Source: Saprospiraceae bacterium
GTDB taxonomy: Bacteria; Bacteroidota; Bacteroidia; Chitinophagales; Saprospiraceae
Direction: 5' to 3'
Assembly (NCBI GenBank): GCA_027080725.1
Contig: JALWRC010000100.1
Span: forward strand, 1 to 36,706
Length of the DNA: 36,706 nucleotides
Shown here one piece after another: positions 2,824 through 27,136 of this stretch. The translations under genes were made by a program, and so were the position numbers. The notes beneath the pieces were generated by a model, which saw nothing but the letters and a program-made list of their open reading frames with translations, was not told the DNA's origin and made no database searches. How positions within the stretch are numbered: position 1 is the first letter of the stretch; each line of letters begins with the position of its first letter.

Positions 2824-3447
2824 TTACATGAAATTAGAGTGCAAGGTATCAAATGCCAATTTCATATCTTCCCGTTCGAGAAAACAGGTGAGCTCCGTAC
2901 AAGTAGAAGCTATCTCAATCAGATTAATGTTCTGAAAGCTCAAACGCTGTAATATAGCCGCCACCGCTCCGGATTGCTCCAGCATCGAGCGCTCAAATTG
3001 GATGGTAATGGCAGACAAGTCGTAATGCTCATATTTGGGTTCCGGCATTTTGGCTCTTTTCAGAAAGTCCTGTTTCGAAATGATGGTTATCTCACTATTA
3101 CTCTCTGAAATGGTAAAGTACTCCTGCTCCTCCATAGCTTTATTGAATAAGGCTTGAATCTTTTCATGAACTTCATGATCCTTATTAAAACTCATGGTGG
3201 CCAACTCCGTGTGAATCTCCAGTTCGGATATTTTCAACTTCGGGCGATATGTGACATCGACCTTTCTTTGATAACGGGATAGAGCCATGATGATAGCACT
3301 ATCGCGATAAAACTTGCCCGTCAAGGACTCCAATGTGGGTTTGATGTAACTGGCAAACCTGGAGAGATTAATCAGACGGTTGGATATGAAATACCCCAAC
3401 TGCTGATCATCTCCTACAACTTTGTGAATGGCTTCTGATAATCTCAT
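2824..3447 (-). CDS. ACT-domain protein, possible amino acid sensor
   Basis: A soluble 207-residue protein without signal peptide or membrane segment. The C-terminal third (about residues 140-207) reads as an ACT fold: ITIQFERSMLEQSGAVAAIL, then INLIEIASTCTELTCFLE and a final helix. This is the beta-alpha-beta-beta-alpha order of ACT modules in aspartokinases. The first 60 residues are helical (MRLSEAIHKVVGDDQQLGYF) and could be DNA-binding or a dimerisation part, but no helix-turn-helix can be assigned. The gene is divergent from dapA, separated by 331 bp. Since ACT domains often bind lysine, threonine or other amino acids, a role in sensing the product of the neighbouring operon is a reasonable inference, not a demonstrated one. 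Confidence 0.6.
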   Translation of the reverse strand: MRLSEAIHKVVGDDQQLGYFISNRLINLSRFASYIKPTLESLTGKFYRDSAIIMALSRYQRKVDVTYRPKLKISELEIHTELATMSFNKDHEVHEKIQALFNKAMEEQEYFTISESNSEITIISKQDFLKRAKMPEPKYEHYDLSAITIQFERSMLEQSGAVAAILQRLSFQNINLIEIASTCTELTCFLEREDMKLAFDTLHSNFM

Positions 3448-3778: not shown

Positions 3779-4648
3779 ATGTTTACCGGGTTATTGACCG
3801 CTTTAGTCACTCCTTTTAGCTCTGATGCTTCGTTATTAGACGAAAAAGCACTGGAAGTGTTAATTGATTTTCAATTAACCGGAGGGGTATCCGGCCTAGT
3901 GATATTAGGGACGACAGGTGAAGCGCCCACCATTTCATACCATGAAAAGAAGCTCTTAATCCAATCTGTTGTCTCTAATGTCGCCGGCCGGACAAAAATA
4001 GTAGTTGGTACCGGTACGAATTGTACAAAGACCTCCATCCGGCTTTCTCAGGAAGCACAATCCCTCGGTGCCGATGGCTTGCTGGTCGTCTGCCCCTATT
4101 ACAACAAACCTACACAACAGGGGCTTTACGAACACTTCACAACCATCGCCCAATCCGTAGATATCCCCATCATCCTCTACAATGTACCCGGCAGGACGGG
4201 CGTCAACTTAGAAACAGAGACGGTCATCCGGCTGAGCCGGCATCCCAATATACGAAGTGTCAAAGAAGCCTCCGGAAATATCAATCAAATCAGGTATCTC
4301 TGTGAATATTTTAAGGACAATCCGGAATTTACCGTTCTCTCCGGTGACGATGGCATTACCGACCAGGTAATCCGCATGGGAGGCGATGGGGTCATCTCAG
4401 TAGTGTCAAATATTTTGCCTGCTGAAATGAGCCAATGGGTCGAAGCGCTTCGATCGTCCCATCAAACAGAAGCATCCCGGCTACGCAAAATCTTAGAACC
4501 CTATTTCACCGCATGCTTTGTTCAAACCAACCCCATTCCCATCAAAACAATGCTCTCGGCCAAAGGACTTTGCAAAGACACATTTCGCTTGCCTCTGACT
4601 CCTATGACACCCCTTGACAAACAACAGCTGTTGCAATCTGTATCTTAA
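3779..4648 (+). CDS. dapA: 4-hydroxy-tetrahydrodipicolinate synthase
   Basis: Condenses pyruvate with aspartate semialdehyde, the first committed step of the DAP/lysine route, in the cytosol. The 289-residue length is normal for this (beta/alpha)8 aldolase. Visible signatures are GTTGEAPT (about 45-51), YYNKPTQQGL (about 108), the catalytic Tyr134 in YNVPGRTG and the Schiff-base Lys162 in VKEASG. It is first of an eight-gene operon, 30 bp before dapD. Residues 51-54 (TISY) are encoded by a copy of the window's repeated 13-mer at 3929-3941; the family usually has a His or polar residue where Tyr54 stands. Lysine feedback may act on the enzyme but cannot be read from sequence. Confidence 0.96.
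   Translation: MFTGLLTALVTPFSSDASLLDEKALEVLIDFQLTGGVSGLVILGTTGEAPTISYHEKKLLIQSVVSNVAGRTKIVVGTGTNCTKTSIRLSQEAQSLGADGLLVVCPYYNKPTQQGLYEHFTTIAQSVDIPIILYNVPGRTGVNLETETVIRLSRHPNIRSVKEASGNINQIRYLCEYFKDNPEFTVLSGDDGITDQVIRMGGDGVISVVSNILPAEMSQWVEALRSSHQTEASRLRKILEPYFTACFVQTNPIPIKTMLSAKGLCKDTFRLPLTPMTPLDKQQLLQSVS
3929..3941 (-). repeat. 13-mer GGTATGAAATGGT, exact, in dapA
   Basis: The plus strand reads ACCATTTCATACC, encoding TISY of DapA (51-54). It is followed by ATG. Confidence 0.85.
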
Positions 4649-4678: not shown

Positions 4679-5470
4679 ATGTCTGTCCTTCCAAAAAAAT
4701 TCGACCAATTCAAATCCGCCATAGAAACGGGAAATGCCGATACTGCGATAATAACCAATATCATTGAGGCATTGGACGAAGGAAAGTTAAGGGTCGCCGA
4801 AAAGAAACAGGGCAAATGGGTAGTTAACGAGTGGATTAAAGAAGCCATTGTGCGATATTTCGGTGTCACCCATATGGAGTCCATCGACTGTCTTCCCTTT
4901 CATTTCAGAGACAAGATCCCCCTCAAAGAAGACATCGGCCAACTTCGTATTGTCCCGGGAGGTAACAGCATACGTTTTGGTGCTCACCTCGAGCCACAAG
5001 TGGTTATGATGCCTCCCAGCTTTGTCAATATAGGGGCCAGGGTGGGACGTGGATCCATGATAGACTCCAATGTCCTGGTAGGCTCCTGTGCTCAAATTGG
5101 CTCCGATGTCCACCTCTCTGCAGGCGTCCAAATCGGAGGCGTCCTCGAACCCGCTAATGCCCGTCCGGTCATCCTCGAAGACCGGGTTTTTGCCGGAGCC
5201 GGGGCTATCATCGTAGAGGGAATTCTCATTCGTGCATCGGCCATTATTGCTCCGGGAGTGGTACTCTCCGCGGGAACCCGCATCCTCGAAGTGGACGCAC
5301 AGGGAAAAATCACCCGCACCCATCAAGGGGAAATCCCCTCAGGGGCCATCGTAGTGCCCGGCGCACGCATGCGTGGAGAGGTGATGCTTCAAACCCCGGT
5401 TATCATCGGCTACCGGGAAGAAAAAACAGATGCAAAAGTCGCTTTGAGCCAATTTCTCAGACAATTCTGA
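4679..5470 (+). CDS. dapD: Tetrahydrodipicolinate N-succinyltransferase
   Basis: Transfers succinyl from succinyl-CoA to tetrahydrodipicolinate in the succinylase branch of DAP synthesis. The 263 residues show an N-terminal helical part (1-95), then the left-handed beta-helix hexapeptide repeats from about 95 to 220, with RFGAHLEPQVVMMPPSFVNIGA, GSCAQIGSDVHLSAGVQIGGVLEPANARPV and a C-terminal strand region. The GGVLEP loop and long N-terminal domain match DapD rather than the acetyltransferase DapH. E. coli DapD is 274 residues. The gene lies 30 bp after dapA and 5 bp before the aminotransferase. The presence of dapE in the same operon supports succinylated intermediates. Confidence 0.92.
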   Translation: MSVLPKKFDQFKSAIETGNADTAIITNIIEALDEGKLRVAEKKQGKWVVNEWIKEAIVRYFGVTHMESIDCLPFHFRDKIPLKEDIGQLRIVPGGNSIRFGAHLEPQVVMMPPSFVNIGARVGRGSMIDSNVLVGSCAQIGSDVHLSAGVQIGGVLEPANARPVILEDRVFAGAGAIIVEGILIRASAIIAPGVVLSAGTRILEVDAQGKITRTHQGEIPSGAIVVPGARMRGEVMLQTPVIIGYREEKTDAKVALSQFLRQF

Positions 5471-5475
5471 TTCCC

Positions 5476-6585
5476 ATGCCTCAAGCAGTAGAAAATATAC
5501 GAGCGCTCAACTTTGATTTGCGCGAGATTGCAGAAATGGCCGCGGCTACCCCAAATTGCATCCGGGCAGATCTCGGACGAATCAACTATCCGGTAGACCA
5601 CCGGTTTCAACAGATGATGCAACGCCAAATCAAAAGGGAGACCTTTGATTATGCTCCGACCTACGGAATTCCCGAACTCATCGAAACGCTCCATGCGTTT
5701 GACCGGCCTCAACTCAGACGCTACCACACTCCCGCAACCTTGATTACTTCGGGAGGACAAGCGGCATTGTACGCTACCTTCAAAACCTGGTTGAACCCCG
5801 GAGATGCCATCTTGACCGATGTTGCTGCGTATCCGCCCTATGGGCGCATCGCCCGGTTATTGGATGCCACCCTCGAGCAACGCCATCTCCGGAAGATCCA
5901 ATCCTCAGATTTACCTCCCAAAATCAAAATACTCCTCATCAATCACCCCAACAACCCCACCGGTCAAATATATCCCCCTTCCACTCTACAGCATTGGGCG
6001 ACCATGGCCCGCCAAAACGATTGGTTGGTGGTTGAAGATGCTGTTTACGACCGGATGTACTACGACGATACCCCGCCGGAATCCATGGCGAGTTTTTGCC
6101 CCGAGCGCACCCTCATCATCCAATCCGCCTCCAAAAATCTCGCCCTCCCGGGCATACGCATCGGATGGATACACGGAGAGGAGTCCCATATCCGGCAAGT
6201 GGCCAAAGTGCATCGAAATATGAACTCTTGTCCCAACACCTTCTTTCAAAATACCCTGGCAATATATCTTCCACAGGCAGAAGAATACATCCGCACTCTG
6301 CGCAGGGAAATGAAGCGCAGAAGAGATGCGCTTCACGATGTTTTGGTGCGACAGGGTTGGCCGGTCACTCCTCCTGAAGGGGCCATTTACCTGTGGGCAG
6401 ACATCCCCGGCAAAGTCCCAAGTGCGTCATTTGTACAATCGATGATTCGGGAAGCGGGCATCTCGGCTATGCCGGGGTCTTTATTTGGCGACTTTGAGCA
6501 CAAAGTGCGGTTTTGCTTCGGTGCACTCACCTTGAAGGATATACACCTTTTTGAAGAACGGCTCAAATCTTTTGTCTATGTATGA
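5476..6585 (+). CDS. dapC: Class I/II PLP aminotransferase, likely N-succinyl-DAP aminotransferase
   Basis: A fold-type I PLP aminotransferase of 369 residues. Visible features are TSGGQAALYATF (cofactor phosphate side), NHPNNPTG near residue 157, VVEDAVYDRMY with the PLP-ring Asp, the Schiff-base Lys220 in SASKNLALPG, and the C-terminal VRFCFG with the carboxylate-binding Arg. Its place between dapD and dapE makes it the best candidate for the missing step from N-succinyl-2-amino-6-oxopimelate to N-succinyl-LL-DAP. The sequence alone cannot separate DapC from other class I enzymes, so the symbol is an inference from context. Its stop codon TGA lies inside a 12/13 copy of the repeated 13-mer and overlaps the next gene by 8 bases. 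Confidence 0.8.
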   Translation: MPQAVENIRALNFDLREIAEMAAATPNCIRADLGRINYPVDHRFQQMMQRQIKRETFDYAPTYGIPELIETLHAFDRPQLRRYHTPATLITSGGQAALYATFKTWLNPGDAILTDVAAYPPYGRIARLLDATLEQRHLRKIQSSDLPPKIKILLINHPNNPTGQIYPPSTLQHWATMARQNDWLVVEDAVYDRMYYDDTPPESMASFCPERTLIIQSASKNLALPGIRIGWIHGEESHIRQVAKVHRNMNSCPNTFFQNTLAIYLPQAEEYIRTLRREMKRRRDALHDVLVRQGWPVTPPEGAIYLWADIPGKVPSASFVQSMIREAGISAMPGSLFGDFEHKVRFCFGALTLKDIHLFEERLKSFVYV

Positions 6586-7789
6586 AATGGTACACCATAT
6601 GGCACAAGAAGTGGGCACGCCCTTCTACCTCTACGACAAAGCCGTCATCCGAAGGCAGTGGGAAGCACTACATGAAAATAAACCCGCACAGCTCCGCGTA
6701 TTTTACGCCGTCAAAGGCAACCCAACCCTGGCCATTCTCCGGATATTTCGCGCCTTGGGGGCAGGGGTGGAAATCGCTTCGGGTGGAGAGCTCTTCCTGG
6801 CGCTCAAGGCCGGTTTTTCTCCGGAAGACATCATTTTTACCGGCCCCGCAAAGACGGATGCCGAACTCGAATTTGCAGTCCAAACCGGTATCCGGACCAT
6901 ACACTTAGAATCCCTCCGGGAAGCAGAGAGATTACACTTGATTTGCACGCGGCTGGAAAAGCGCCAGGCCGTCTTAGTCCGAATCAACTCCAGTATGGAG
7001 GTAAAGACCCAAGTGCAGCTGTCCGGGTGCCCAAGTCCGTTTGGCATCAGTGAAGAGGACGTTGAGGATATTCTTCCTGCCATCCTGCAACTCTCCAAGC
7101 TGGACTTCAAGGGAATCCACGTTTACAACGCCTCCGGAATATTGGACTACCGGCTGTTGCTAAAAAATGTCGAGCATGTATTCGAGTTGGTCACATCTCT
7201 CGAAAAGACACTCGAAATTGATATTCCGGTCATCGATTTCGGAGGAGGATTAGGAGTGGACTATTCCGACAGGGACCAACACGTAGATGTCCCTTCCTTT
7301 TACCGGGGCTTCGACGCTCTCATGCATGAGTACGGATTTCAAAACCGGCATTTTATTCTGGAAATTGCCCGGTATTTGATGGCCTCATCGGGCAGCTATA
7401 TCACCAAGGTCTTAGACAAAAAGATGTCCAGAGGTACCCTCTTTTTGATCACCGATGGAGGCATCCATCACTTTATGCGAAAGGCTCTATTTGATAGTAA
7501 TCATTCTGCAGAAGTCCTGCAGTCCACCATTTCATACCAAAAAGAAACCGTCCATGTGACCGGATGCCTCTGTACCAGTATCGATAGATTGCTTACAGAA
7601 GTGGCCCTTCCCAAAGCTTCCATAGGGGATTATATCCGCATAAAAAAGGCCGGGTGTTACAGCCTCAGTGCGGCCATCAATCACTTCCTCTCCCACGAAA
7701 TGCCGGCTGAAATACTCCTGGAGGGCAAGGACTGGAAAATCATCCGCTCCCGGGGAAAACACGGAGATCTACTAATAAATCAACCCTAA
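6578..7789 (+). CDS. lysA: Type III PLP decarboxylase in the lysA position (atypical)
   Basis: A 403-residue fold-type III (alanine racemase-like) PLP decarboxylase. The N-terminal barrel has the Schiff-base Lys46 in YAVKGNP, then GVEIASGGEL and FTGPAKTDAEL; the C-terminal beta domain has CTSIDRL, the GDYIRI motif and AGCYSLSA. Position in the operon argues for DAP decarboxylase, the final step to lysine. However, the usual LysA Glu after the active-site Cys (CES/CE) is Thr333 here, the EPGR loop is EIAR (262-265), and CTSIDRL...SLSAAINHFLSH resembles BtrK and exosortase-associated decarboxylases. The start at 6578 (MYEMVHH) overlaps the upstream stop; an in-frame TTG at 6551 would overlap further and is less likely. 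Substrate assignment is moderate. Confidence 0.75.
   Translation: MYEMVHHMAQEVGTPFYLYDKAVIRRQWEALHENKPAQLRVFYAVKGNPTLAILRIFRALGAGVEIASGGELFLALKAGFSPEDIIFTGPAKTDAELEFAVQTGIRTIHLESLREAERLHLICTRLEKRQAVLVRINSSMEVKTQVQLSGCPSPFGISEEDVEDILPAILQLSKLDFKGIHVYNASGILDYRLLLKNVEHVFELVTSLEKTLEIDIPVIDFGGGLGVDYSDRDQHVDVPSFYRGFDALMHEYGFQNRHFILEIARYLMASSGSYITKVLDKKMSRGTLFLITDGGIHHFMRKALFDSNHSAEVLQSTISYQKETVHVTGCLCTSIDRLLTEVALPKASIGDYIRIKKAGCYSLSAAINHFLSHEMPAEILLEGKDWKIIRSRGKHGDLLINQP
6579..6591 (+). repeat. 13-mer, 12/13 copy at the aminotransferase/lysA junction
   Basis: TGTATGAAATGGT. It contains the TGA stop of the aminotransferase and codons 2-5 (YEMV) of the decarboxylase. Confidence 0.7.
7526..7538 (-). 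repeat. 13-mer, exact, in lysA-like gene
   Basis: The plus strand reads ACCATTTCATACC, in frame as TISY from residue 317. Confidence 0.85.
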
Positions 7790-7790
7790 T

Positions 7791-8834
7791 ATGATAGCAC
7801 TCATCCAACAGCTCATACGCATCTCAAGCACCAGTGGTAACGAAAGGGCTATTGCTGATTTTGTGTTTCAAAAAACCCGGCAGATCGGCGCCAAACGCCT
7901 GGGAAACAATATCATATGGCAAGGGGATTCTCGCCCCCAACGACCGACCATCGCTCTGGGGGGACATCTCGACACCGTACCTTTTACAGCGGACAAATGG
8001 AGTATCACCCATCCCTTACAGCCCCTGATCAAGGGTGACAGGCTCTACGGAAGAGGAGCCTGCGATATGAAATCCGGATCCGGAATTCTACTCGACATGC
8101 TACTCCAACAAGACTTTGGTGAGCGTTATAACCTGCGTTTTTTTTGGTATGAAAAGGAAGAATTAGGAGTGCCCAACGGGGTGACCACCCTTATCAAAGA
8201 GGGATTTTTTGAAGGGGTCGATCTTTGTATTATTCCGGAGCCTACGGAGGGGTTGGTGGTCAACGGGGTATTTGGCAACTTGGATGCCCGAGTCACTGCC
8301 TATGGCAAATCCGTCCATAGTGCTTACCCGCTACTCGGGGACAATGCCATCTACCGCTTGATTCCGGTGATCGAAAAAATCAGGGATTATCACTGTACAG
8401 AAGTCGAAGGGGTGCGGGAAGCCCTTTCTGCCAATACCATTCGCGGAGGAAAGGCCATCAATGTGGTCCCCGATCATGTCGAATTGGAGTTGGACTACCG
8501 GTTTCATCCCGAAAAAAGCGAAGGAGAAGTGCTGGATTTGCTCCAGAGTCTAGAAGACGACCATATCACGACAGAGGTCATCGGGTTATTTCCGGGGGTA
8601 TTTCATCCGGTAGAGAAGCATCCCCTGATCCAACGGCTTGCCAAGCTTGCAGGAGGGAATAAAGTAGTCCCCTTCTGGAGCGATATCGGCCAACTCGGAG
8701 CCCATGGCATCACAGCCATCAACTTTGGCCCCGGTTCTATCCGGCAAGCCCACACCATAGATGAATTTGTGAAGCTCGAACAGATACAAACCGTAAGGGA
8801 AGTTTTACATCAATTTTTAAATGAAGTAATCTGA
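7791..8834 (+). CDS. dapE: Succinyl-diaminopimelate desuccinylase (M20 family)
   Basis: A zinc-dependent M20 peptidase-family hydrolase of 347 residues, expected to release succinate from N-succinyl-LL-DAP. Metal and catalytic positions are visible: His59 and Asp61 in GGHLDT, Asp92 in CDMKSG, the general base Glu123 with Glu124 in EKEELG, the Glu in IPEPT near 151, and a His in the C-terminal AHTIDEF near 320. The dimerisation domain lies between about 165 and 280. The sequence (CIIPEPT, GNLDARVTAYGKSVHSAYP) looks more like the actinobacterial type of DapE than the proteobacterial one. ArgE or LysK activity is an alternative, but the operon context with dapD favours DapE. It starts 1 bp after the decarboxylase stop. 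Confidence 0.88.
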   Translation: MIALIQQLIRISSTSGNERAIADFVFQKTRQIGAKRLGNNIIWQGDSRPQRPTIALGGHLDTVPFTADKWSITHPLQPLIKGDRLYGRGACDMKSGSGILLDMLLQQDFGERYNLRFFWYEKEELGVPNGVTTLIKEGFFEGVDLCIIPEPTEGLVVNGVFGNLDARVTAYGKSVHSAYPLLGDNAIYRLIPVIEKIRDYHCTEVEGVREALSANTIRGGKAINVVPDHVELELDYRFHPEKSEGEVLDLLQSLEDDHITTEVIGLFPGVFHPVEKHPLIQRLAKLAGGNKVVPFWSDIGQLGAHGITAINFGPGSIRQAHTIDEFVKLEQIQTVREVLHQFLNEVI

Positions 8835-8837
8835 CGT

Positions 8838-10196
8838 ATGAAGGTATTAAAATTTGGAGGAACTTCGATGGGAAACGCCGGGGCACTTCGGCAGATTGAA
8901 GCTATTTTCAGGACAAATATCGGGCTTGGTGGGCAGCCGGTCCTCGTCTGCTCTGCTATGGGCGGGGTGACGGATCAACTCATCGAGATCGGAACCCTTG
9001 CAGAGCGGAGGAGGCTTGCCCGGGCCATGGAACTCTATGAGCAACTCAAAGACCGGCATCTTCAGACGGCCGAAGAACTACATGTCCGCCCGGCGTTTGA
9101 AGCGCTGACAGAAAGCTTGTTTTCCGACCTCAAAAACTTAATCCGGGGAATCGGGTTGATACTCGAATTTTCGGAACGCAGCCGGGCATATCTCACCAGT
9201 TTCGGAGAGCGCCTTTCGACGAGACTTTTGACTGCATTTCTCAAAAAGCAGGGGCATCCTGTCCAACAGTTTGATGCTACTTTTATCAAAACCTCCGGTA
9301 AAAACTTCCTCCGGGATGAGGTCAATTATCACGAGACAAAAAAGCAGGTGCAAGCCGTTCTCAGCACTCCTTTACAACAGGGCATATCTCCCGTTATTAC
9401 CGGATTTTTCGGGACCAATGCCGATAGTGTCATCAGTTTGCTCGGAAGAGGAGGCTCGGATTATAGTGGAGCCGTCCTCGCGGTAAGTCTCGGGGTCAAA
9501 CAGCTGGAGATCTGGACCGACGTCGATGGCTTTTTGACTGCTGATCCCCGCATCGTATCCGAAGCGAGCATCATCGGACAAATCGGCTTTCAAGAAGCGG
9601 CTGAACTCTGTTTTTACGGTGCTAAGGTCTTACATCCCAAAACCATCCGGCCCGTCATCGAACGAGGTGGAGAAGTGCGGATTCGCAATACCTTCAAGCC
9701 TAAAAATAAGGGCACGCTCATCACCCAGCACCCCTCCCCCAGCCGGGTTCCTGTCATCTCCATCTCTTCAAAAGGAGTCCACATGATCACCCTGGATTTA
9801 TTTGCCATCCGGCAAAACAAACGAGAAGTGATGTCTGCGCTTTTCGGTTTGTCTTCAAACCTGGAAATCAATATCGACATGATTGCGGCAAGCGAAGCCC
9901 AAGTGTCCTTCTGCGTAGAGAGCAATCAAGACCATTTAGATACATTTTTGCAGCAACTGCACGAGATATGCCCTATTGACATCAAGAAGGACCGGTCAGT
10001 GGTTTGTATTGTTTCTCCCGGAGATGTCCAGGGACAAATCGGGGTGGCGGGACGCATCTTCACTACCATCGCTGAGAGTGGTGTAAGTGTCGAAATGTAT
10101 TCTCAAAATGCCTCGGAAATTGCCCAATTAATCGTCGTGCCATCTGCAGTAGCGCATAAAGTAATCGCCAATATCCATAAAAACCTTGTCCAATGA
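8838..10196 (+). CDS. lysC: Aspartate kinase
   Basis: Phosphorylates aspartate, feeding lysine, threonine and methionine synthesis. The 452-residue monofunctional enzyme begins with MKVLKFGGTS (nucleotide site), has SERSRAYLTSFGERLS (substrate region, about 110-125), GRGGSDYSGAVLA and WTDVDGFLTADPR (about 210-240), then two ACT regions after about residue 300, with GRIFTTIAESGVSVEMYSQN in the second. ACT modules of this kind usually mediate feedback by lysine or threonine; which one cannot be told here. It starts 3 bp after dapE and its TGA overlaps the asd ATG by 4 bases (ATGA), which suggests translational coupling. Confidence 0.95.
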   Translation: MKVLKFGGTSMGNAGALRQIEAIFRTNIGLGGQPVLVCSAMGGVTDQLIEIGTLAERRRLARAMELYEQLKDRHLQTAEELHVRPAFEALTESLFSDLKNLIRGIGLILEFSERSRAYLTSFGERLSTRLLTAFLKKQGHPVQQFDATFIKTSGKNFLRDEVNYHETKKQVQAVLSTPLQQGISPVITGFFGTNADSVISLLGRGGSDYSGAVLAVSLGVKQLEIWTDVDGFLTADPRIVSEASIIGQIGFQEAAELCFYGAKVLHPKTIRPVIERGGEVRIRNTFKPKNKGTLITQHPSPSRVPVISISSKGVHMITLDLFAIRQNKREVMSALFGLSSNLEINIDMIAASEAQVSFCVESNQDHLDTFLQQLHEICPIDIKKDRSVVCIVSPGDVQGQIGVAGRIFTTIAESGVSVEMYSQNASEIAQLIVVPSAVAHKVIANIHKNLVQ

Positions 10197-11206
10197 AAAA
10201 GATTGCCGTGTGTGGAGTGACCGGTGCGGTCGGCAAAGAAGTCTTGAGATGCCTTGGCCATCTCCCCTTCGGAGAGTTGAGCCTGACGTGCTACGCCTCG
10301 GAGCGCTCTGCCGGAAAAGAGGTACAAACACCTTTCGGAACACAAACCATCGAGAGATTTTCGATGGAAGAATGCCGGGGATTTGACGTGGTATTCCTCT
10401 GTGTATCAGGTAGCTTTTCTTCCAAATACGGCAAGCAATTGTCCATACAAAATGAAGTAGTCATCGACAATTCTTCTTATTTTAGATTGGACGATGACGT
10501 CCCCTTGATCATTCCTGAGATCAATCTGAGCAGATGTAAGGGACACCGGCTCATCTCCAACCCCAATTGCACCACGGCCATACTGGCTGTAGCATTGTAC
10601 CCCATATACCGGCAATTTAGTCTGAAACGCGTAATCGTATCCACCTATCAAGCGACTTCGGGAAGTGGACAAGCGGCTATGGACGAACTGGCATCCCAAA
10701 CAGCTAATTACCTCAAATCCGGCAAAGCCGGCCATCGACAATTTGCGCATCCGATACCATTCAATCTCCTGCCGGCCATCGACCGGTTTGAAGCCAATGG
10801 ATACACCAGAGAAGAGATGAAAGTAGTACACGAAACCCGCAAAATCTTTGATGATGATAGCATTCTCTTGTCCACTACCGCAGTAAGGGTACCTACCTTT
10901 CGCGCACATGCCGAAAGCGTAACCATACAAACCCAACATCCTGTAACCCCTGATGCCGTAAGGGAGATACTCCAAAACGCTCCGGGCGTGGTGGTCAAAG
11001 ACGACCCACAAGAACAAGTGTATCCGATGCCCTTGACATCCACGGGGCAATACGACGTCGAAGTGGGTAGAATACGGGCCAACCCCATCTTCGGTGAGTG
11101 TGGCCTTGATTTTTTTGTCTGTGGAGATCAACTGCTCAAAGGAGCGGCCCTCAATGCCACACAAATCGCCTTGCAGCTATTTGATGCCAACCATTTCAAG
11201 CAATAA
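10193..11206 (+). CDS. asd: Aspartate-semialdehyde dehydrogenase
   Basis: Reduces aspartyl phosphate to aspartate semialdehyde with NADPH, directly after LysC. The 337 residues start with a Rossmann motif (VCGVTGAVGKEVLRCL, about 5-20). The catalytic Cys126 lies in SNPNCTT, followed by ATSGSGQAAMDEL and later VRVPTFRAHAESV with the substrate-side Arg and His. The 4-base overlap with lysC suggests that the two enzymes are made in equal amounts, which suits an unstable intermediate. The gene ends 13 bp before dapB. Confidence 0.95.
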   Translation: MKKIAVCGVTGAVGKEVLRCLGHLPFGELSLTCYASERSAGKEVQTPFGTQTIERFSMEECRGFDVVFLCVSGSFSSKYGKQLSIQNEVVIDNSSYFRLDDDVPLIIPEINLSRCKGHRLISNPNCTTAILAVALYPIYRQFSLKRVIVSTYQATSGSGQAAMDELASQTANYLKSGKAGHRQFAHPIPFNLLPAIDRFEANGYTREEMKVVHETRKIFDDDSILLSTTAVRVPTFRAHAESVTIQTQHPVTPDAVREILQNAPGVVVKDDPQEQVYPMPLTSTGQYDVEVGRIRANPIFGECGLDFFVCGDQLLKGAALNATQIALQLFDANHFKQ

Positions 11207-11219
11207 AATTACTTCCCTT

Positions 11220-11966
11220 ATGAGTTATGAAAAAATACTTCAACTTGGATTCGTAGGAGACGGCCAAATGAGTCGTGCTATCCAAACTGCCGCCCAATCT
11301 GCAGGTCATACGGTATCTTCCATCATCCGTAGAAATGATTCCACAGAAAACATCGACGGGTCGCTCATATACGAGTGTGCCCTGCCCGAAGGTGTCCTCG
11401 AAAGGATAAAAACCCTGTGCGACCTATCCAAAGACGTGGTCATCGTAACGACCGGATGGTACGACAGGTTGGAAGAAGTGAGACAATGGGTCGAGGTGGC
11501 CGGAAACCGGGTGGTTTGGTCATCCAATTATTCGATAGGGGTGCAGCTATTCTTCAAAATCGTGAATTATTCCTCCCAGTTGTTCAATCATATGATAGAG
11601 TACGACATCTGGGGTACTGAGCTGCATCACCGTAACAAAACGGACTCCCCATCGGGGACTGCCAAGACTTTGGGGGAGATTATCATCAACAATATCGACC
11701 GAAAAGAATCTTTGGTCACCGAAACCCTCCACCGAAAAATCAAACCGGAGGAAATCCATTTTAGCTCTACTCGCGGGGGTGAAAACAATTTCTCGCATAC
11801 GATTTCTTTCGGTGGCGCTTCGGATTGTATCACACTCCAACACAGCGCCACCAACCGCAATGAATACGCCATCGGTGCGATAAAAGCCGGGGAATGGCTT
11901 AAAAGGCAGCCCCCCGGATTCTATTCAATGGAGGACTTCCTCAGTGATTTACTCCCCCGGATTTGA
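11220..11966 (+). CDS. dapB: 4-hydroxy-tetrahydrodipicolinate reductase
   Basis: Reduces the DapA product to tetrahydrodipicolinate with NAD(P)H. The protein is 248 residues when started at the ATG at 11220 (MSYEKILQLGFVGDGQMSRAI), which puts the Rossmann glycine motif at residues 9-16 and lies 13 bp after the asd stop. A longer frame opening at 11094 lies inside asd and is not used. The substrate-binding and catalytic signature ELHHRNKTDSPSGTAKT lies near residues 130-147, with the catalytic His pair and Lys. Length is slightly under the 270 of E. coli DapB. It is last in the operon and convergent with secA, with only 8 bp between the stops. Confidence 0.93.
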   Translation: MSYEKILQLGFVGDGQMSRAIQTAAQSAGHTVSSIIRRNDSTENIDGSLIYECALPEGVLERIKTLCDLSKDVVIVTTGWYDRLEEVRQWVEVAGNRVVWSSNYSIGVQLFFKIVNYSSQLFNHMIEYDIWGTELHHRNKTDSPSGTAKTLGEIIINNIDRKESLVTETLHRKIKPEEIHFSSTRGGENNFSHTISFGGASDCITLQHSATNRNEYAIGAIKAGEWLKRQPPGFYSMEDFLSDLLPRI

Positions 11967-23295: not shown

Positions 23296-26200
23296 TTAAA
23301 AATGAATATTGTCAGGAAGTAGGTCTTTTATCTCTTCCACGGTCAGCGATTTCATACCTGCATAGGCTTCTGCCTGGTCCCGCCCGATGGCTCCCACCTT
23401 AAAGTAGCGCGCCTTGGGATGGGCAAAATAGTATCCGGAAACGGAAGCGGCCGGATGCATGGCATAACTGTCCGTCAGACTTATACCCAAGCGGGATGTC
23501 ACCTCCATCCATTCGAATATCTTTACTTTCTCCGAATGGTCAGGACAGGCGGGATATCCGGCAGCAGGGCGTATCCCCCGGTATTTTTCTTTTAGCAAAT
23601 GCGTCAAGTCGGCGCCTTCCTCCGGGCTATAGCCCCAGAATTGGGTGCGCACTTCGTAATGCAACTTCTCCGCCAAGGCTTCGGCCAGACGGTCTGCCAA
23701 CAGCTTGAGCATAATCCGCCTGTATTCGTCATTTGCAAAATACGGATCCTCAAGCGCTTCTTCCATCCCCAACCCTGCGGTAACCGCAAACAACCCGAGA
23801 TAATCCGTCACTCCACTATCCGCCGGAGCGATGTAATCACTCAGGCAAGGATTGACAGAGAGGCGTTCGGATTGATTGCGCAAAAACACCAATGGGAGGG
23901 TCTTATCCCGGTATGAAATGGTAATCCTTTCGTCTTGGCTCGATGCTTCGTACAACCCATAAACAGCAGATGCCCGCAACCATTTACGGGTTTCGATTTT
24001 CTTCAACATGTCCAGGGCATCCCGGTAGAGCTTTTGTGCTTCTTCTCCTTTCTCCGGATGCTCCAAAATGGCAGGAAACTTCCCTTTCAACTGCCAGCCA
24101 TAAAAGAAAAAAGTCCAGTCGATAAACGGAATGATAGAAGAGATAGGGATATCCACCATTTCATACCTGCCCAGCCGCGCAGGCCGCTTTATTTGCGCCT
24201 CCTGCCGGTTCCACCCAAAACGCCTGCGCCGGGCCTCGTCCAGGGGACGCAGCTTTTTGGAAGCATTTTTCAATCGATGCTTTTCGACGAGGGAGCGGTG
24301 TTGCTTCTCTGCCTCTTTCACAAAAGCGGCACTGTCCTCCCCCAATAGAGCACTCGCCATCCGGACGGCGGTAGGAGCATCCCGTACATAGAGAACAGGC
24401 GCGGAGTACTCCGGCGCAATTTTGACAGCGGTATGGATATCCGAAGTGGTCGCTCCTCCGATTAAAATCGGGATACTGAGCCCTTGTTGCTCCATTTGTC
24501 CGGCAAACAGGGCCATCTCTTTAAGGCTCGGGGTGATGAGGCCACTCAACCCGATGAGGTCCACTTTTTCTTCCAGGGCAACCCGGATAATCTCCTCTGT
24601 CGGAACCATTACCCCGAGATCGATTACCTCAAAGTTATTGCAGGACAAGACAACGCCCACGATATTCTTGCCGATGTCATGCACATCCCCTTTGACGGTA
24701 GCCAACAGGATTTTGCCCGCTTTTGTCCCCGTTCCGGATTGCTCTGCTTGAAGGATGGGAAGAAGGATCGCAACGGCTTTTTTCATAACCCGTGCGCTTT
24801 TAACCACTTGGGGTAGAAACATTTTGCCGGAGCCGAAGAGTTGGCCGACAATGTTCATGCCATCCATCAGCGGCCCTTCGATGATGGCGAGGGCAGAGGG
24901 ATAAGCAGCAATGGCTTCGGCTACATCGGATTCCAAGTACGTGGTGATTCCCTTCACCAAGGCATGCCCCAACCTCTTATCCAAAGGCAGCTGCCTCCAA
25001 TCTTCGGATACGGATTGAGTTGCGCTTTGTCCCTTGTGCTGGGCGGCATACCGGAGGAGGGCATCCGTAGCGCCGGGATTGCGATTAAAAATCAGGTCTT
25101 CGACCAAAGTGAGCAATTCCTTGGGGATATCATCATATACTTGGAGCTGGGCAGGATTGACGATGGCCATATCCAATCCCGCTTGGATGGCATGGTACAA
25201 GAAGGCGGAGTGAATGGCCTCCCGTATTTCATTTTGCCCTCGAAAAGCGAAGGAGAGATTGCTGACTCCTCCACTCACTTTGGCGTGTGGCAAATGGGCT
25301 TTAATCCACCGGCATGCCTCTATAAAATCTATCGCATAACGGGCATGCTCCTCGATTCCGGTCCCAATCGCGAGGATGTTGGGGTCGAAGATGATGTCTT
25401 CCGGCGGAAATCCGTGTCCGGTGAGCAAGTGGTAACTCTTCGAGCAAATCTCTATTTTTCGTTCCAGCGTATCCGCCTGTCCGTCTTCGTCAAAAGCCAT
25501 GACGACGACAGCGGCACCAAACTTTCTTATTTGATTGGCTTTCTCGAGCAGGACTTCTTCGCCTTCTTTTAGACTGATGGAGTTGATGATAGGCTTGCCC
25601 TGGATGCATTTTATCCCGGCGAGGATGACCTCCCAATCCGAGCTATCCACCATGAAAGGAACGCGACAGATATCGGGCTCCGAAGCGAGAAGATGGAGGA
25701 AAGTGCGCATTTCGTGTGGCGCATCGAGCATGGCATCATCCATGCAAATATCTACGATTTGAGCTCCGTTTTCAACTTGTTGAGCGGCAATTTGGACCGC
25801 CTCTGCGTACTGTTGGTTGCGGATAAGCCGGGCAAATTTTCGAGAGCCGGCGACATTGGTGCGTTCACCGATATTGACAAAGTTGATTTCCGGAGTGATG
25901 GTCAGGGACTCCAGTCCACTGAGCCGGGTAGTGCGTGGGATGGATGGAGCCTTTCGCGGGGAGTGTTCGGCGGCGCTTTGGGCAAATAGGGCTATGTGCT
26001 CCGGAGTGGTCCCACAACATCCACCGATGATATTCACCCAGCCATTGGAGAGGAAGTCGTCGATGTGTTGACGCATTTTTTCCGGGGTTTCATCGTATTC
26101 TCCAAATGCATTGGGGAGTCCGGCATTGGGGTATGAAATGGTAAAGAATCCGGTCAATGCAGACAACCGTTGGACATGTTGGCGCATTTCTGTTGCTCCC

Positions 26201-26937
26201 AGTGCACAGTTGAGCCCCACGGCGAGGAGATCGACGTGGCTAATGGAATGGAGGAATGCTTCCAAGAGTTGTCCGGACAGGGTGCGGCCGCTTTTGTCCG
26301 TAATGGTGCCGGAGACGATTACGGGGATGTGGACTCCGGTTTGTTCGCGAAGCTGTAAGATAGCGTGCAATGCCGCCTTAGCGTTGAGGGTGTCAAATAC
26401 CGTTTCAACAAGGAAAATATCGACTCCACCATCTTGTAAACCGTGAATTTGGTCCGAGTAGGCCGAGAGGAGTTGGTCGTAATCCACGGCTCGAAATCCG
26501 GGATCTTCGACATCGGGAGACATGGACGCTGTCCGGTTGGTCGGGCCGATAGAACCCGCCACAAAGCGGGGTTTAGACGGGGTTTTGGCAGTAAACTCGT
26601 CTGCGGCCCGGCGCGCAATTTGTGCAGAGGCGAGGTTGATCTCATATGCGAGAGCTTGCATCCCATAATCCGCCAACGAAATGGCTTGTGCATTGAAAGT
26701 GTTGGTCTCGATGATATCTGCCCCCACCTGCAAATATTGCTTGTGGATGGTCCGGATGATGCCAGGTTGGGTAAGGCTGAGCAAATCGTTATTGCCCATC
26801 ACATCTTGTCCCCAATCCGCAAATCGATCTCCGCGATAACCGGATTCATCGAGTCCGTAGCGCTGAATCATGGTGCCCATCGCTCCGTCCAATACCAGAA
26901 TGCGCTCCTGTAAAATAGTTTCCAATCTTTCCTTCAT
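23296..26937 (-). CDS. metH: Cobalamin-dependent methionine synthase
   Basis: Transfers the methyl group from methyl-tetrahydrofolate via cobalamin to homocysteine. At 1213 residues it is a full-length, four-module enzyme (E. coli 1227). Order: homocysteine domain (1-325; GLNCALG and GGCCGTTPEH supply the zinc Cys ligands), pterin-binding domain (about 340-620; INFVNIGERTNVAGS), B12 cap and Rossmann domain (about 640-890; GDVHDIGKNIVGVVL carries the His that replaces dimethylbenzimidazole), and the SAM reactivation domain (about 900-1213; RPAAGYPACPDHSEK). Three exact copies of the 13-mer lie inside the gene, encoding TISY at about 266 and 1006 and YEMV at about 925. It requires cobalamin; the leader carries a SAM-type riboswitch. 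Confidence 0.97.
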   Translation of the reverse strand: MKERLETILQERILVLDGAMGTMIQRYGLDESGYRGDRFADWGQDVMGNNDLLSLTQPGIIRTIHKQYLQVGADIIETNTFNAQAISLADYGMQALAYEINLASAQIARRAADEFTAKTPSKPRFVAGSIGPTNRTASMSPDVEDPGFRAVDYDQLLSAYSDQIHGLQDGGVDIFLVETVFDTLNAKAALHAILQLREQTGVHIPVIVSGTITDKSGRTLSGQLLEAFLHSISHVDLLAVGLNCALGATEMRQHVQRLSALTGFFTISYPNAGLPNAFGEYDETPEKMRQHIDDFLSNGWVNIIGGCCGTTPEHIALFAQSAAEHSPRKAPSIPRTTRLSGLESLTITPEINFVNIGERTNVAGSRKFARLIRNQQYAEAVQIAAQQVENGAQIVDICMDDAMLDAPHEMRTFLHLLASEPDICRVPFMVDSSDWEVILAGIKCIQGKPIINSISLKEGEEVLLEKANQIRKFGAAVVVMAFDEDGQADTLERKIEICSKSYHLLTGHGFPPEDIIFDPNILAIGTGIEEHARYAIDFIEACRWIKAHLPHAKVSGGVSNLSFAFRGQNEIREAIHSAFLYHAIQAGLDMAIVNPAQLQVYDDIPKELLTLVEDLIFNRNPGATDALLRYAAQHKGQSATQSVSEDWRQLPLDKRLGHALVKGITTYLESDVAEAIAAYPSALAIIEGPLMDGMNIVGQLFGSGKMFLPQVVKSARVMKKAVAILLPILQAEQSGTGTKAGKILLATVKGDVHDIGKNIVGVVLSCNNFEVIDLGVMVPTEEIIRVALEEKVDLIGLSGLITPSLKEMALFAGQMEQQGLSIPILIGGATTSDIHTAVKIAPEYSAPVLYVRDAPTAVRMASALLGEDSAAFVKEAEKQHRSLVEKHRLKNASKKLRPLDEARRRRFGWNRQEAQIKRPARLGRYEMVDIPISSIIPFIDWTFFFYGWQLKGKFPAILEHPEKGEEAQKLYRDALDMLKKIETRKWLRASAVYGLYEASSQDERITISYRDKTLPLVFLRNQSERLSVNPCLSDYIAPADSGVTDYLGLFAVTAGLGMEEALEDPYFANDEYRRIMLKLLADRLAEALAEKLHYEVRTQFWGYSPEEGADLTHLLKEKYRGIRPAAGYPACPDHSEKVKIFEWMEVTSRLGISLTDSYAMHPAASVSGYYFAHPKARYFKVGAIGRDQAEAYAGMKSLTVEEIKDLLPDNIHF
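23910..23922 (+). repeat. 13-mer, exact, in metH (SAM domain)
   Basis: Encodes TISY near residue 1006 on the minus strand. It forms an inverted pair with the copy 245 bp away. Confidence 0.85.
24155..24167 (-). repeat. 13-mer, exact, in metH, opposite orientation
   Basis: Here the coding strand carries GGTATGAAATGGT, read as YEMV near residue 925. Confidence 0.85.
26130..26142 (+). repeat. 13-mer, exact, in metH (homocysteine domain)
   Basis: Encodes TISY at residues 266-269, before PNAGLP. Confidence 0.85.
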
Positions 26938-27017: not shown

Positions 27018-27136
27018 CAATTCAATTTATCATCGTCCGCTGTAGCGAACCCGGGTATTGGCACCTTACCTTTTGAAGCAGGTTGCCAGGGATTCATGGA
27101 GCCCGGTCTCTCCTCCCTTCTAAATAAATCAAATTG
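27018..27136 (-). promoter_or_regulatory. SAM-I-type riboswitch, leader of metH-metF
   Basis: On the minus strand the leader reads, in order: a P1 5' arm (27136-27124), the kink-turn stretch GGAGAGACCGGGC, the core CCTGGCAACCTGC, then AAGGTAAGGTGCCAATACCCGGG, a small hairpin GTTCGCTACAGCGGAC and GATGATAAA closing P1 (27030-27018). The two P1 arms pair over 13 bp, two of them G-U. The GGCAACC and AAGGTGCCAAT cores and their spacing are those of the SAM-I class. Binding of S-adenosylmethionine would shut down metH and metF. Between the aptamer and the ATG at 26937, TAGGA / TCCTA around 26966-26982 may act in the expression platform; no classic terminator is seen, so control of translation is possible. 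Confidence 0.85.

Follow-up and report, generated by a model that had tools for sequence, protein, structure and literature searches.

The fold-type III enzymes dependent on pyridoxal phosphate (PLP) that compare most closely with the protein considered here are the diaminopimelate (DAP) decarboxylase LysA and the decarboxylases around BtrK. In the LysA of Thermotoga, Arg249 and Arg285 bind the distal carboxylate of the substrate and Glu315 its distal amine, and the E315T variant of that enzyme loses most DAP activity and prefers 2-aminopimelate, a compound with the distal carboxylate and no distal amine (PMC8277567, in excerpt). The characterized enzymes on the BtrK side use conjugated amino acids, i.e. 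N-citryl-L-ornithine, N-citryl-L-2,3-diaminopropionate and, in the case of BtrK (L-glutamyl-[BtrI acyl-carrier protein] decarboxylase), L-glutamyl-BtrI (PMC7857480, also in excerpt). Two further points of comparison are the exosortase-A-associated decarboxylases (TIGR03099) and DapF2, a predicted PLP-dependent DAP epimerase of Staphylococcus (PMC9026213, in excerpt). The locus set against these systems is a gene, here called X, at 6578–7789 (+) in an eight-gene lysine operon of a member of the Saprospiraceae (assembly GCA_027080725.1, contig JALWRC010000100.1). The window, i.e. the whole stretch of DNA that was analysed, is that contig (C100; 36 706 nucleotides), and the source genome (G000) is a 3.80 Mb draft in 110 contigs, rated 100 % complete.

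As judged from sequence, X is a separate lineage within this enzyme superfamily, with a combination of residues found in no other protein among 136 aligned rows and a position that predicts a specific reaction. The reaction proposed is that of a PLP-dependent alpha-amino-acid decarboxylase acting on N-succinyl-LL-DAP and yielding N-succinyl-lysine, on which DapE would then act; a probability of roughly 0.38 is assigned to it. It is favoured because X has the catalytic residues of a decarboxylase, because the characterized BtrK-side enzymes take conjugated substrates, and because the gene order matches. Its substrate, stereochemistry and product, and the acceptance of succinyl-lysine by DapE, are the inferred parts. 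SbnH and FigC offer a likeness to such a reaction, as they decarboxylate an L-amino acid that is conjugated at its other end (PMC7857480, in the same excerpt).

Active site and phylogenetic placement of X

Counted from an ATG at 6578, X has 403 aa; this is the likely start, since the open reading frame (ORF) of the sister species (G001) begins at an ATG aligned with it, and the ORF list for the window opens earlier, at a TTG at 6551. The reading frame is intact in both species, the two proteins being 63 % identical. The sole Pfam matches of X (E 0.001) are PF02784 (Orn_Arg_deC_N) and PF00278 (Orn_DAP_Arg_deC), the alanine racemase domain being absent. Against the curated LysA model (TIGR01048), X scores 302.1 bits and its counterpart 303.8 bits, passing the cutoff of 297.9 by a few bits; five of five BtrK/exosortase-type proteins run as controls score 225–292 bits, under the cutoff, and the resident LysA of the source genome scores 361.6. 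An annotation pipeline built on the curated model would thus name X 'LysA', leaving an apparent gap at DapF. The TIGR03099 cutoff of 478.45 bits is not reached by either protein (313.5 bits for X, E 2.2e-93; 295.3 bits in the sister species). The closest sequences in the PDB are two distinct sequences of BtrK (5.5e-65 and 6.9e-65), followed by SbnH and LysA. The structure model of X has a mean pLDDT of 91 and ties between LysA (Z 47.2) and BtrK (Z 46.8, at 34 % identity in the structural alignment); predicted structure was consequently dropped as an arbiter between the two, since it fits both equally.

Residues of X are numbered here from the start at 6578, with codon positions computed from it and Thermotoga LysA (2yxx) as the reference. 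The predicted PLP lysine, Lys46 (6713–6715, +), aligns with Lys46 of the reference, in accord with the claim of the initial annotation that the fold-type III lysine is kept. Also matching are S186 (Ser182), E262 (Glu246), R265 (Arg249; 7370–7372, +), R301 (Arg285, which contacts the distal carboxylate; 7478–7480, +), C332 (Cys314) and Y361 (Tyr343), so that the decarboxylase residues K46, E262, C332 and Y361 are all in place. The departures are E65 (Asp65), Y183 (His179), F305 (Tyr289) and T333 (Glu315), the last of which forms with Cys332 the Cys-Thr pair at 7571–7576 (+). The two distal-carboxylate arginines, the fold, the PLP lysine and the catalytic Cys are thus shared with LysA, which differs in having Glu after the Cys; the Cys-Thr motif and a Tyr at the PLP-stacking position are shared with BtrK.

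The alignment behind the residue counts holds 136 rows, comprising 114 LysA, 13 BtrK-side proteins, the two X proteins and seven rows set aside as partial or off-branch (L092, L093, L084, L088, L056_2, L065_2 and L209). The LysA label rests on alignment and score rather than assay, three pairs of LysA rows are identical (L195/L078, L006/L101 and L008/L047) and one nearly so (L087/L072), and four of 132 loci (L019, L102, L171 and L196) gave no usable stretch, L196 being added to the tree by hand. At position 333, Glu occupies 114 of 114 ordinary LysA rows and Thr or Ser 13 of 13 BtrK-side rows, X having Thr; rows were sorted by hand, so that the Glu count partly reflects the choice of those set aside, three of which lack Glu there (Tyr in L056_2 and L065_2, Asp in L209). 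In this respect the initial annotation was right that X has Thr333 where DAP decarboxylases have Glu after the active-site Cys. Position 301 is Arg in all 114 ordinary LysA rows, in none of the 13 BtrK-side rows, and in X. The pair R301 plus E333 occurs in 117 of the 136 rows, and R301 plus T333 in two, both of them X. Since X combines a Thr like that of E315T with both arginines, the substrate to be expected carries a carboxylate at its distal end and lacks a free amine there. The segment around Arg301 forms a short helix in the model, does not contain the insertion that BtrK and the exosortase-type sequences have at this point, and is taken to correspond to the specificity helix of PMC7857480.

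Three nearly fixed positions also set X apart: A264 replaces a Gly found in 134 of 134 other rows, C360 an Ala found in 131 (the other three having a gap), and A185 a Gly found in 131 of 134. The first of these bears on the motif EIAR, which had been offered against EPGR as a mark of a non-LysA enzyme; Thermotoga LysA itself has EIGR, and the unusual part of the motif is Ala264. Elsewhere in the alignment, two Theionarchaea loci (L056 and L065) carry paired, adjacent LysA-family genes, the more divergent copy having Tyr for the Glu after Cys.

The tree was built from 53 hand-chosen rows, namely the two X proteins, 14 of BtrK/exosortase/ACP/siderophore type (ACP, acyl-carrier protein) and 37 on the LysA side, the last including L056_2 and L209, which lack Glu at 333. 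X falls on the BtrK/exosortase/siderophore side of a branch with support of 100/99, apart from the 37 LysA-side rows, as sister to an 11-row ACP/PEP group at 94/79, short of a star; a starred branch of its own, apart from X, unites SbnH with two rows from siderophore clusters, and FigC is absent from the tree. With groups named after the tree had been seen, topology tests rejected the nesting of X with the Bacteroidota LysA rows (p-AU 0.0005) and within a 17-row bacterial LysA group (p-AU 3e-9), and did not reject X as a stem lineage that joins the LysA side, with all 14 rows of the BtrK side across the dividing branch (p-AU 0.161). The first of these rejections (p-AU 0.0005) also disposes of an origin of X by duplication from the resident LysA. 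X thus lies outside the LysA groups tested, as either a member of the BtrK side or an in-between lineage. Together with Thr333, this placement bears out the view that the decarboxylase at 6578–7789 is not a standard LysA, and the phylogeny, in which X groups with BtrK, PEP-CTERM and siderophore decarboxylases, agrees with the likeness to BtrK and exosortase-associated enzymes that had been noticed in the sequence, as does the rank of BtrK as best PDB match.

The operon and the DAP genes of the genome and family

By the ORF list, NCBIfam and Pfam, the operon reads dapA–dapD–aminotransferase–X–dapE–lysC–asd–dapB, all on the + strand. It opens with dapA, for 4-hydroxy-tetrahydrodipicolinate synthase (3779–4648; TIGR00674, 327.4 bits against a cutoff of 206.15), and dapD, for tetrahydrodipicolinate N-succinyltransferase (4679–5470; NF008808, 267.2 bits against 204), the latter being the only match in the genome. 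The gene at 5476–6585 encodes a class I/II aminotransferase (PF00155, 164.5 bits) that reaches no NCBIfam cutoff among the best 25 of 70 families and is presumed from its position to be the N-succinyl-DAP aminotransferase (DapC role). After X come a dapE-like gene for an M20 desuccinylase (7791–8834; TIGR01900, 231.7 bits, under the cutoff of 304.2), lysC for aspartate kinase (8838–10196; TIGR00657, 316.3 bits against 208.7), asd for aspartate-semialdehyde dehydrogenase (10193–11206; NF011456, 361.1 bits against 223) and dapB for 4-hydroxy-tetrahydrodipicolinate reductase (11220–11966; TIGR00036, 131.5 bits against 122), with a start inferred from the sister species. The intergenic gaps from dapA to dapB are 30, 5, -8, 1, 3, -4 and 13 bases; the start of X overlaps the end of the aminotransferase gene by 8 bases, and a single base separates its stop from dapE. 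The same 8-base overlap is found in the sister species (locus L045, ORFs 8906–10117 and 10110–11222), and the order from dapA to dapB, together with the neighbouring cfa-type, ACT-domain and secA genes, is identical in the two genomes. By NCBIfam and Pfam, the operon contains no gene for an ACP, an AMP-ligase or siderophore synthesis, and gaps of at most 30 bases leave no room for a hidden ACP gene. No lysine riboswitch was found in the window at the gathering threshold. Divergent from the operon, at 2824–3447 (-), lies a gene for a 207-aa protein, also present in the sister species, whose C-terminal part weakly matches the ACT domain of aspartate kinase and which is possibly a lysine sensor. 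Elsewhere in the window, a SAM (S-adenosylmethionine) riboswitch at 27024–27130 (-; RF00162, 73.9 bits) lies upstream of metH (23296–26937, -).

The operon is the sole detected DAP-making gene set of the genome. PF02784 has one further match there, on contig C86, to a canonical LysA of Bacteroidota type with CET and EPGK, so that a search for a second lysA, raised by the initial annotation, is answered in the affirmative and X has a competitor for the final step of lysine synthesis. This LysA is 70 % identical between the two species; both copies share 56–62 % identity with eleven other LysA proteins of the family, which share 56–73 % among themselves, as inheritance within the family would lead one to expect. 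Around it, eight ORFs contain no racemase or epimerase domain (Pfam, 1e-8), two of the eight having no match at all. DapF was detected in neither species by TIGR00652 and PF01678 at E 0.001, the genomes being drafts of 110 and 310 contigs. Ddh was found in none of the 23 genomes searched for it; matches to DapL in the source genome are all under the cutoff, and none reaches 1e-60 in either species. MurE has a DNPR motif in 13 of 13 aligned genomes, both species included, which we take to be the DAP type, and a DAP-type peptidoglycan is accordingly to be expected.

Across the family, DapF is detected in 267 of 298 genomes (199 of the 217 more complete ones) and missing from 31. Sixteen DapF-less genomes, among them G305 (so scored because it is absent from the DapF matches listed) and G045 (so scored from the PF01678 search), were checked for DapD and six have a strong match, namely the two X-bearing species and four relatives without X (G226, G207, G159 and G045): G226 and G207 have no X match at 1e-42, the single match in G159 is at LysA level, and the one match in G045 reads as LysA. 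A missing DapF thus need not be explained by X. Congeners of three of these four have DapF, a sign that the gene may there have been lost recently or missed by the assembly; G226, in about 40 contigs and with its completeness rated at 100 %, yielded DapD and neither DapF nor Ddh, although DapF is present in two congeners. The absence of DapF from both members of the X-bearing genus is suggestive of, and does not prove, replacement by X. The other ten of the sixteen, seven with no DapD match and three with weak ones (5.9e-13, 6.6e-10 and 7.2e-4), may not be making DAP by the succinylase route. Eight genomes with no detected DapF and no strong DapD fall in g27 (G027, G154, G225 and G305), g91 (G092 and G184) and g99 (G100 and G189); except for G305, Ddh and DapL were also not detected in them, the six examined have a DAP-type MurE, G027 has a canonical LysA, and they may be DAP scavengers or follow an unrecognized route.

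Candidate reactions

In the proposed mechanism, N-succinyl-LL-DAP would pass from the aminotransferase encoded upstream to X, which would form its aldimine at the free L-amino-acid end (C6); Arg265 and Arg301 would grip the distal carboxylate, and Thr333 in place of Glu would let the enzyme accept the succinylated distal nitrogen. After the loss of CO2 and reprotonation by Cys332, the N2-succinyl-L-lysine would be converted to L-lysine by the DapE encoded downstream, such that the gene order dapD–aminotransferase–X–dapE would equal the reaction order and lysine would need neither DapF nor LysA. N-succinyl-DAP fits the substrate expected from the active site, the genes flanking X being presumed to make it and hydrolyse it. 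The wider proposal, put forward tentatively, is that lysine is made in this way without free DAP, an epimerase or LysA, by a self-contained eight-gene operon that has passed between lineages. Several observations weigh against decarboxylation of N-succinyl-LL-DAP. The scores of both X proteins exceed the cutoff of the curated LysA model, the stem position on the LysA side stands in the topology tests, and neither the DapE nor the aminotransferase of the operon passes an equivalog cutoff among the matches listed. A resident LysA conserved more highly than X itself is unexpected if lysine needs no LysA, and salvage of meso-DAP as the reason for its retention is a guess; a DAP-type peptidoglycan would still need a DAP isomer, of which the proposed route would yield LL-DAP only. 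Relatives with DapD and neither DapF nor X speak in the same direction, and the E315T variant of Thermotoga LysA is still D-specific (PMC8277567, in excerpt), so that Thr alone does not give L-specificity. Phrase searches of the literature turned up no paper naming a succinyl-DAP decarboxylase, and the reaction is for that reason without precedent in the literature searched. The Nalpha-acetyl-lysine of Salinicoccus was considered as a precedent for early decarboxylation and rejected, as it is made by way of lysine (PMC4685198).

The main alternative, itself somewhat unlikely, is that X is a PLP-dependent epimerase replacing DapF, its substrate being either LL-DAP or, ahead of DapE, N-succinyl-LL-DAP, with Lys46 and Cys332 presumably serving as two bases on opposite faces, LysA making lysine, and MurE receiving meso-DAP. 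It would account together for the undetected DapF and Ddh, the retained LysA and the DAP-type MurE, explaining the last two better than succinyl-DAP decarboxylation does, and the changes at A185, A264 and C360, confined to X, could mark an altered chemistry. A predicted parallel exists in DapF2, likewise a PLP enzyme in the dap clusters of dapF-less genomes; DapF2, however, belongs to the alanine racemase family (PMC9026213, in excerpt), whereas X has decarboxylase domains and no alanine racemase match. An epimerase would also require a new type of reaction despite the kept decarboxylase residues, Glu262 and Cys332 included, the relatives of X treated in the excerpt of PMC7857480 are decarboxylases, and DapF is undetected in relatives without X as well. 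Decarboxylation of free DAP, LL or meso, in the manner of LysA, whether redundant with the canonical enzyme or directed at a different isomer, is less likely again. The place of X in a lysine operon, the LysA scores, the stem position, the two arginines for the carboxylate, and a specificity segment that resembles that of LysA and is free of the BtrK/exosortase-type insert all favour it; on the other hand, X lacks the Glu for the distal amine, replacement of which by Thr cost the Thermotoga enzyme most of its DAP activity (PMC8277567, in excerpt), it lies outside both LysA groups tested, and a canonical LysA exists. Given that LysA and the failure to detect DapF, plain decarboxylation of meso-DAP seems a poorer candidate than a reaction of N-succinyl-DAP or LL-DAP. 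Of the initial idea that a BtrK-like enzyme had been recruited into the lysine operon to decarboxylate DAP, the recruitment is supported by the tree and the reaction, as applied to meso-DAP, seems to have lost ground. Most improbable is that X acts on some other substrate, such as a conjugated amino acid on the way to a polymer or other product, and lies in the operon by coincidence. BtrK-side relatives whose surroundings were read do adjoin AMP-ligase, ACP, exosortase-type or siderophore genes; X, in contrast, has no such gene in its operon, where the gaps are too short for an ACP gene, its layout is kept in the sister species, and its Arg301 is LysA-like and missing from those enzymes. X differs from BtrK in Arg301, in the uninterrupted specificity segment and in the lack of an ACP or AMP-ligase gene, from SbnH in its branch and the lack of a siderophore synthetase nearby, and from the TIGR03099 decarboxylases in scoring far under the cutoff without exosortase or ligase context. 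That the operon might make something other than lysine, as was also entertained at the outset, is not borne out, as the neighbours of X all belong, or could belong, to DAP/lysine synthesis and include the only DapD found in the genome.

Origin, spread and significance

The DapD proteins of the two X-bearing species share 44–50 % identity with eight others from the family and order, against 69–85 % among those eight; in the stretches of DNA retrieved around the eight genes, the sole other match to an operon protein at 1e-6 is the product of a lysC in G029, at 1.8 kb from dapD. Because the DapD of the genus, the one protein so compared, is an outlier to that of the family, the operon probably came from elsewhere, before the two species diverged; the outlying DapD fits its acquisition as one unit. 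Base composition was set aside as proof of transfer, the operon having 49.9 % G+C and its flanks 39.5 % and 46.9 %, which is not decisive. Profile matches to X among the 298 family genomes are confined to the two species, the next being proteins of G081, G131 and G232 that lie beside AMP-ligases, and then matches at LysA level; the G081 protein, to which X is closest in the family once its own genus is set aside, is 39 % identical to X and of exosortase-associated type by its score, which at 468 bits is just under the TIGR03099 cutoff. At the level of the phylum, X was found in one of 395 genomes, the source genome, and 28 of the 29 other loci fetched could be aligned, all 28 having LysA residues. 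A pattern scan of genome contigs with two narrow peptide patterns gave 42 loci, in which the sole X is that of the sister species; the others are closer to LysA, apart from weak or short matches at L092, L095 and in a part of L093. Plasmid searches returned 272 records for X, all below 60 % identity, and matches of 27–31 % for the aminotransferase and 38–41 % for DapD among the 8 and 12 listed; neither these searches, the contig scan nor the family and phylum profile searches found a donor of the operon. In two relatives (L117, 8179–9474; L118, 8152–9447), a BtrK-like decarboxylase lies beside AMP-ligase-like and hydrolase-like ORFs, as named from sequence.

X represents a natural parallel to the engineered E315T decarboxylase of Thermotoga, studied for nylon-6 precursors (PMC8277567, in excerpt). 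If it decarboxylates succinyl-DAP, it would add a new branch to a textbook pathway; if instead it epimerizes DAP, it would be a PLP-type replacement for DapF drawn from a different fold branch than the predicted DapF2. Either reading, if true, would alter the calls of DAP and lysine auxotrophy in a family in which several genomes are without a detected DapF.

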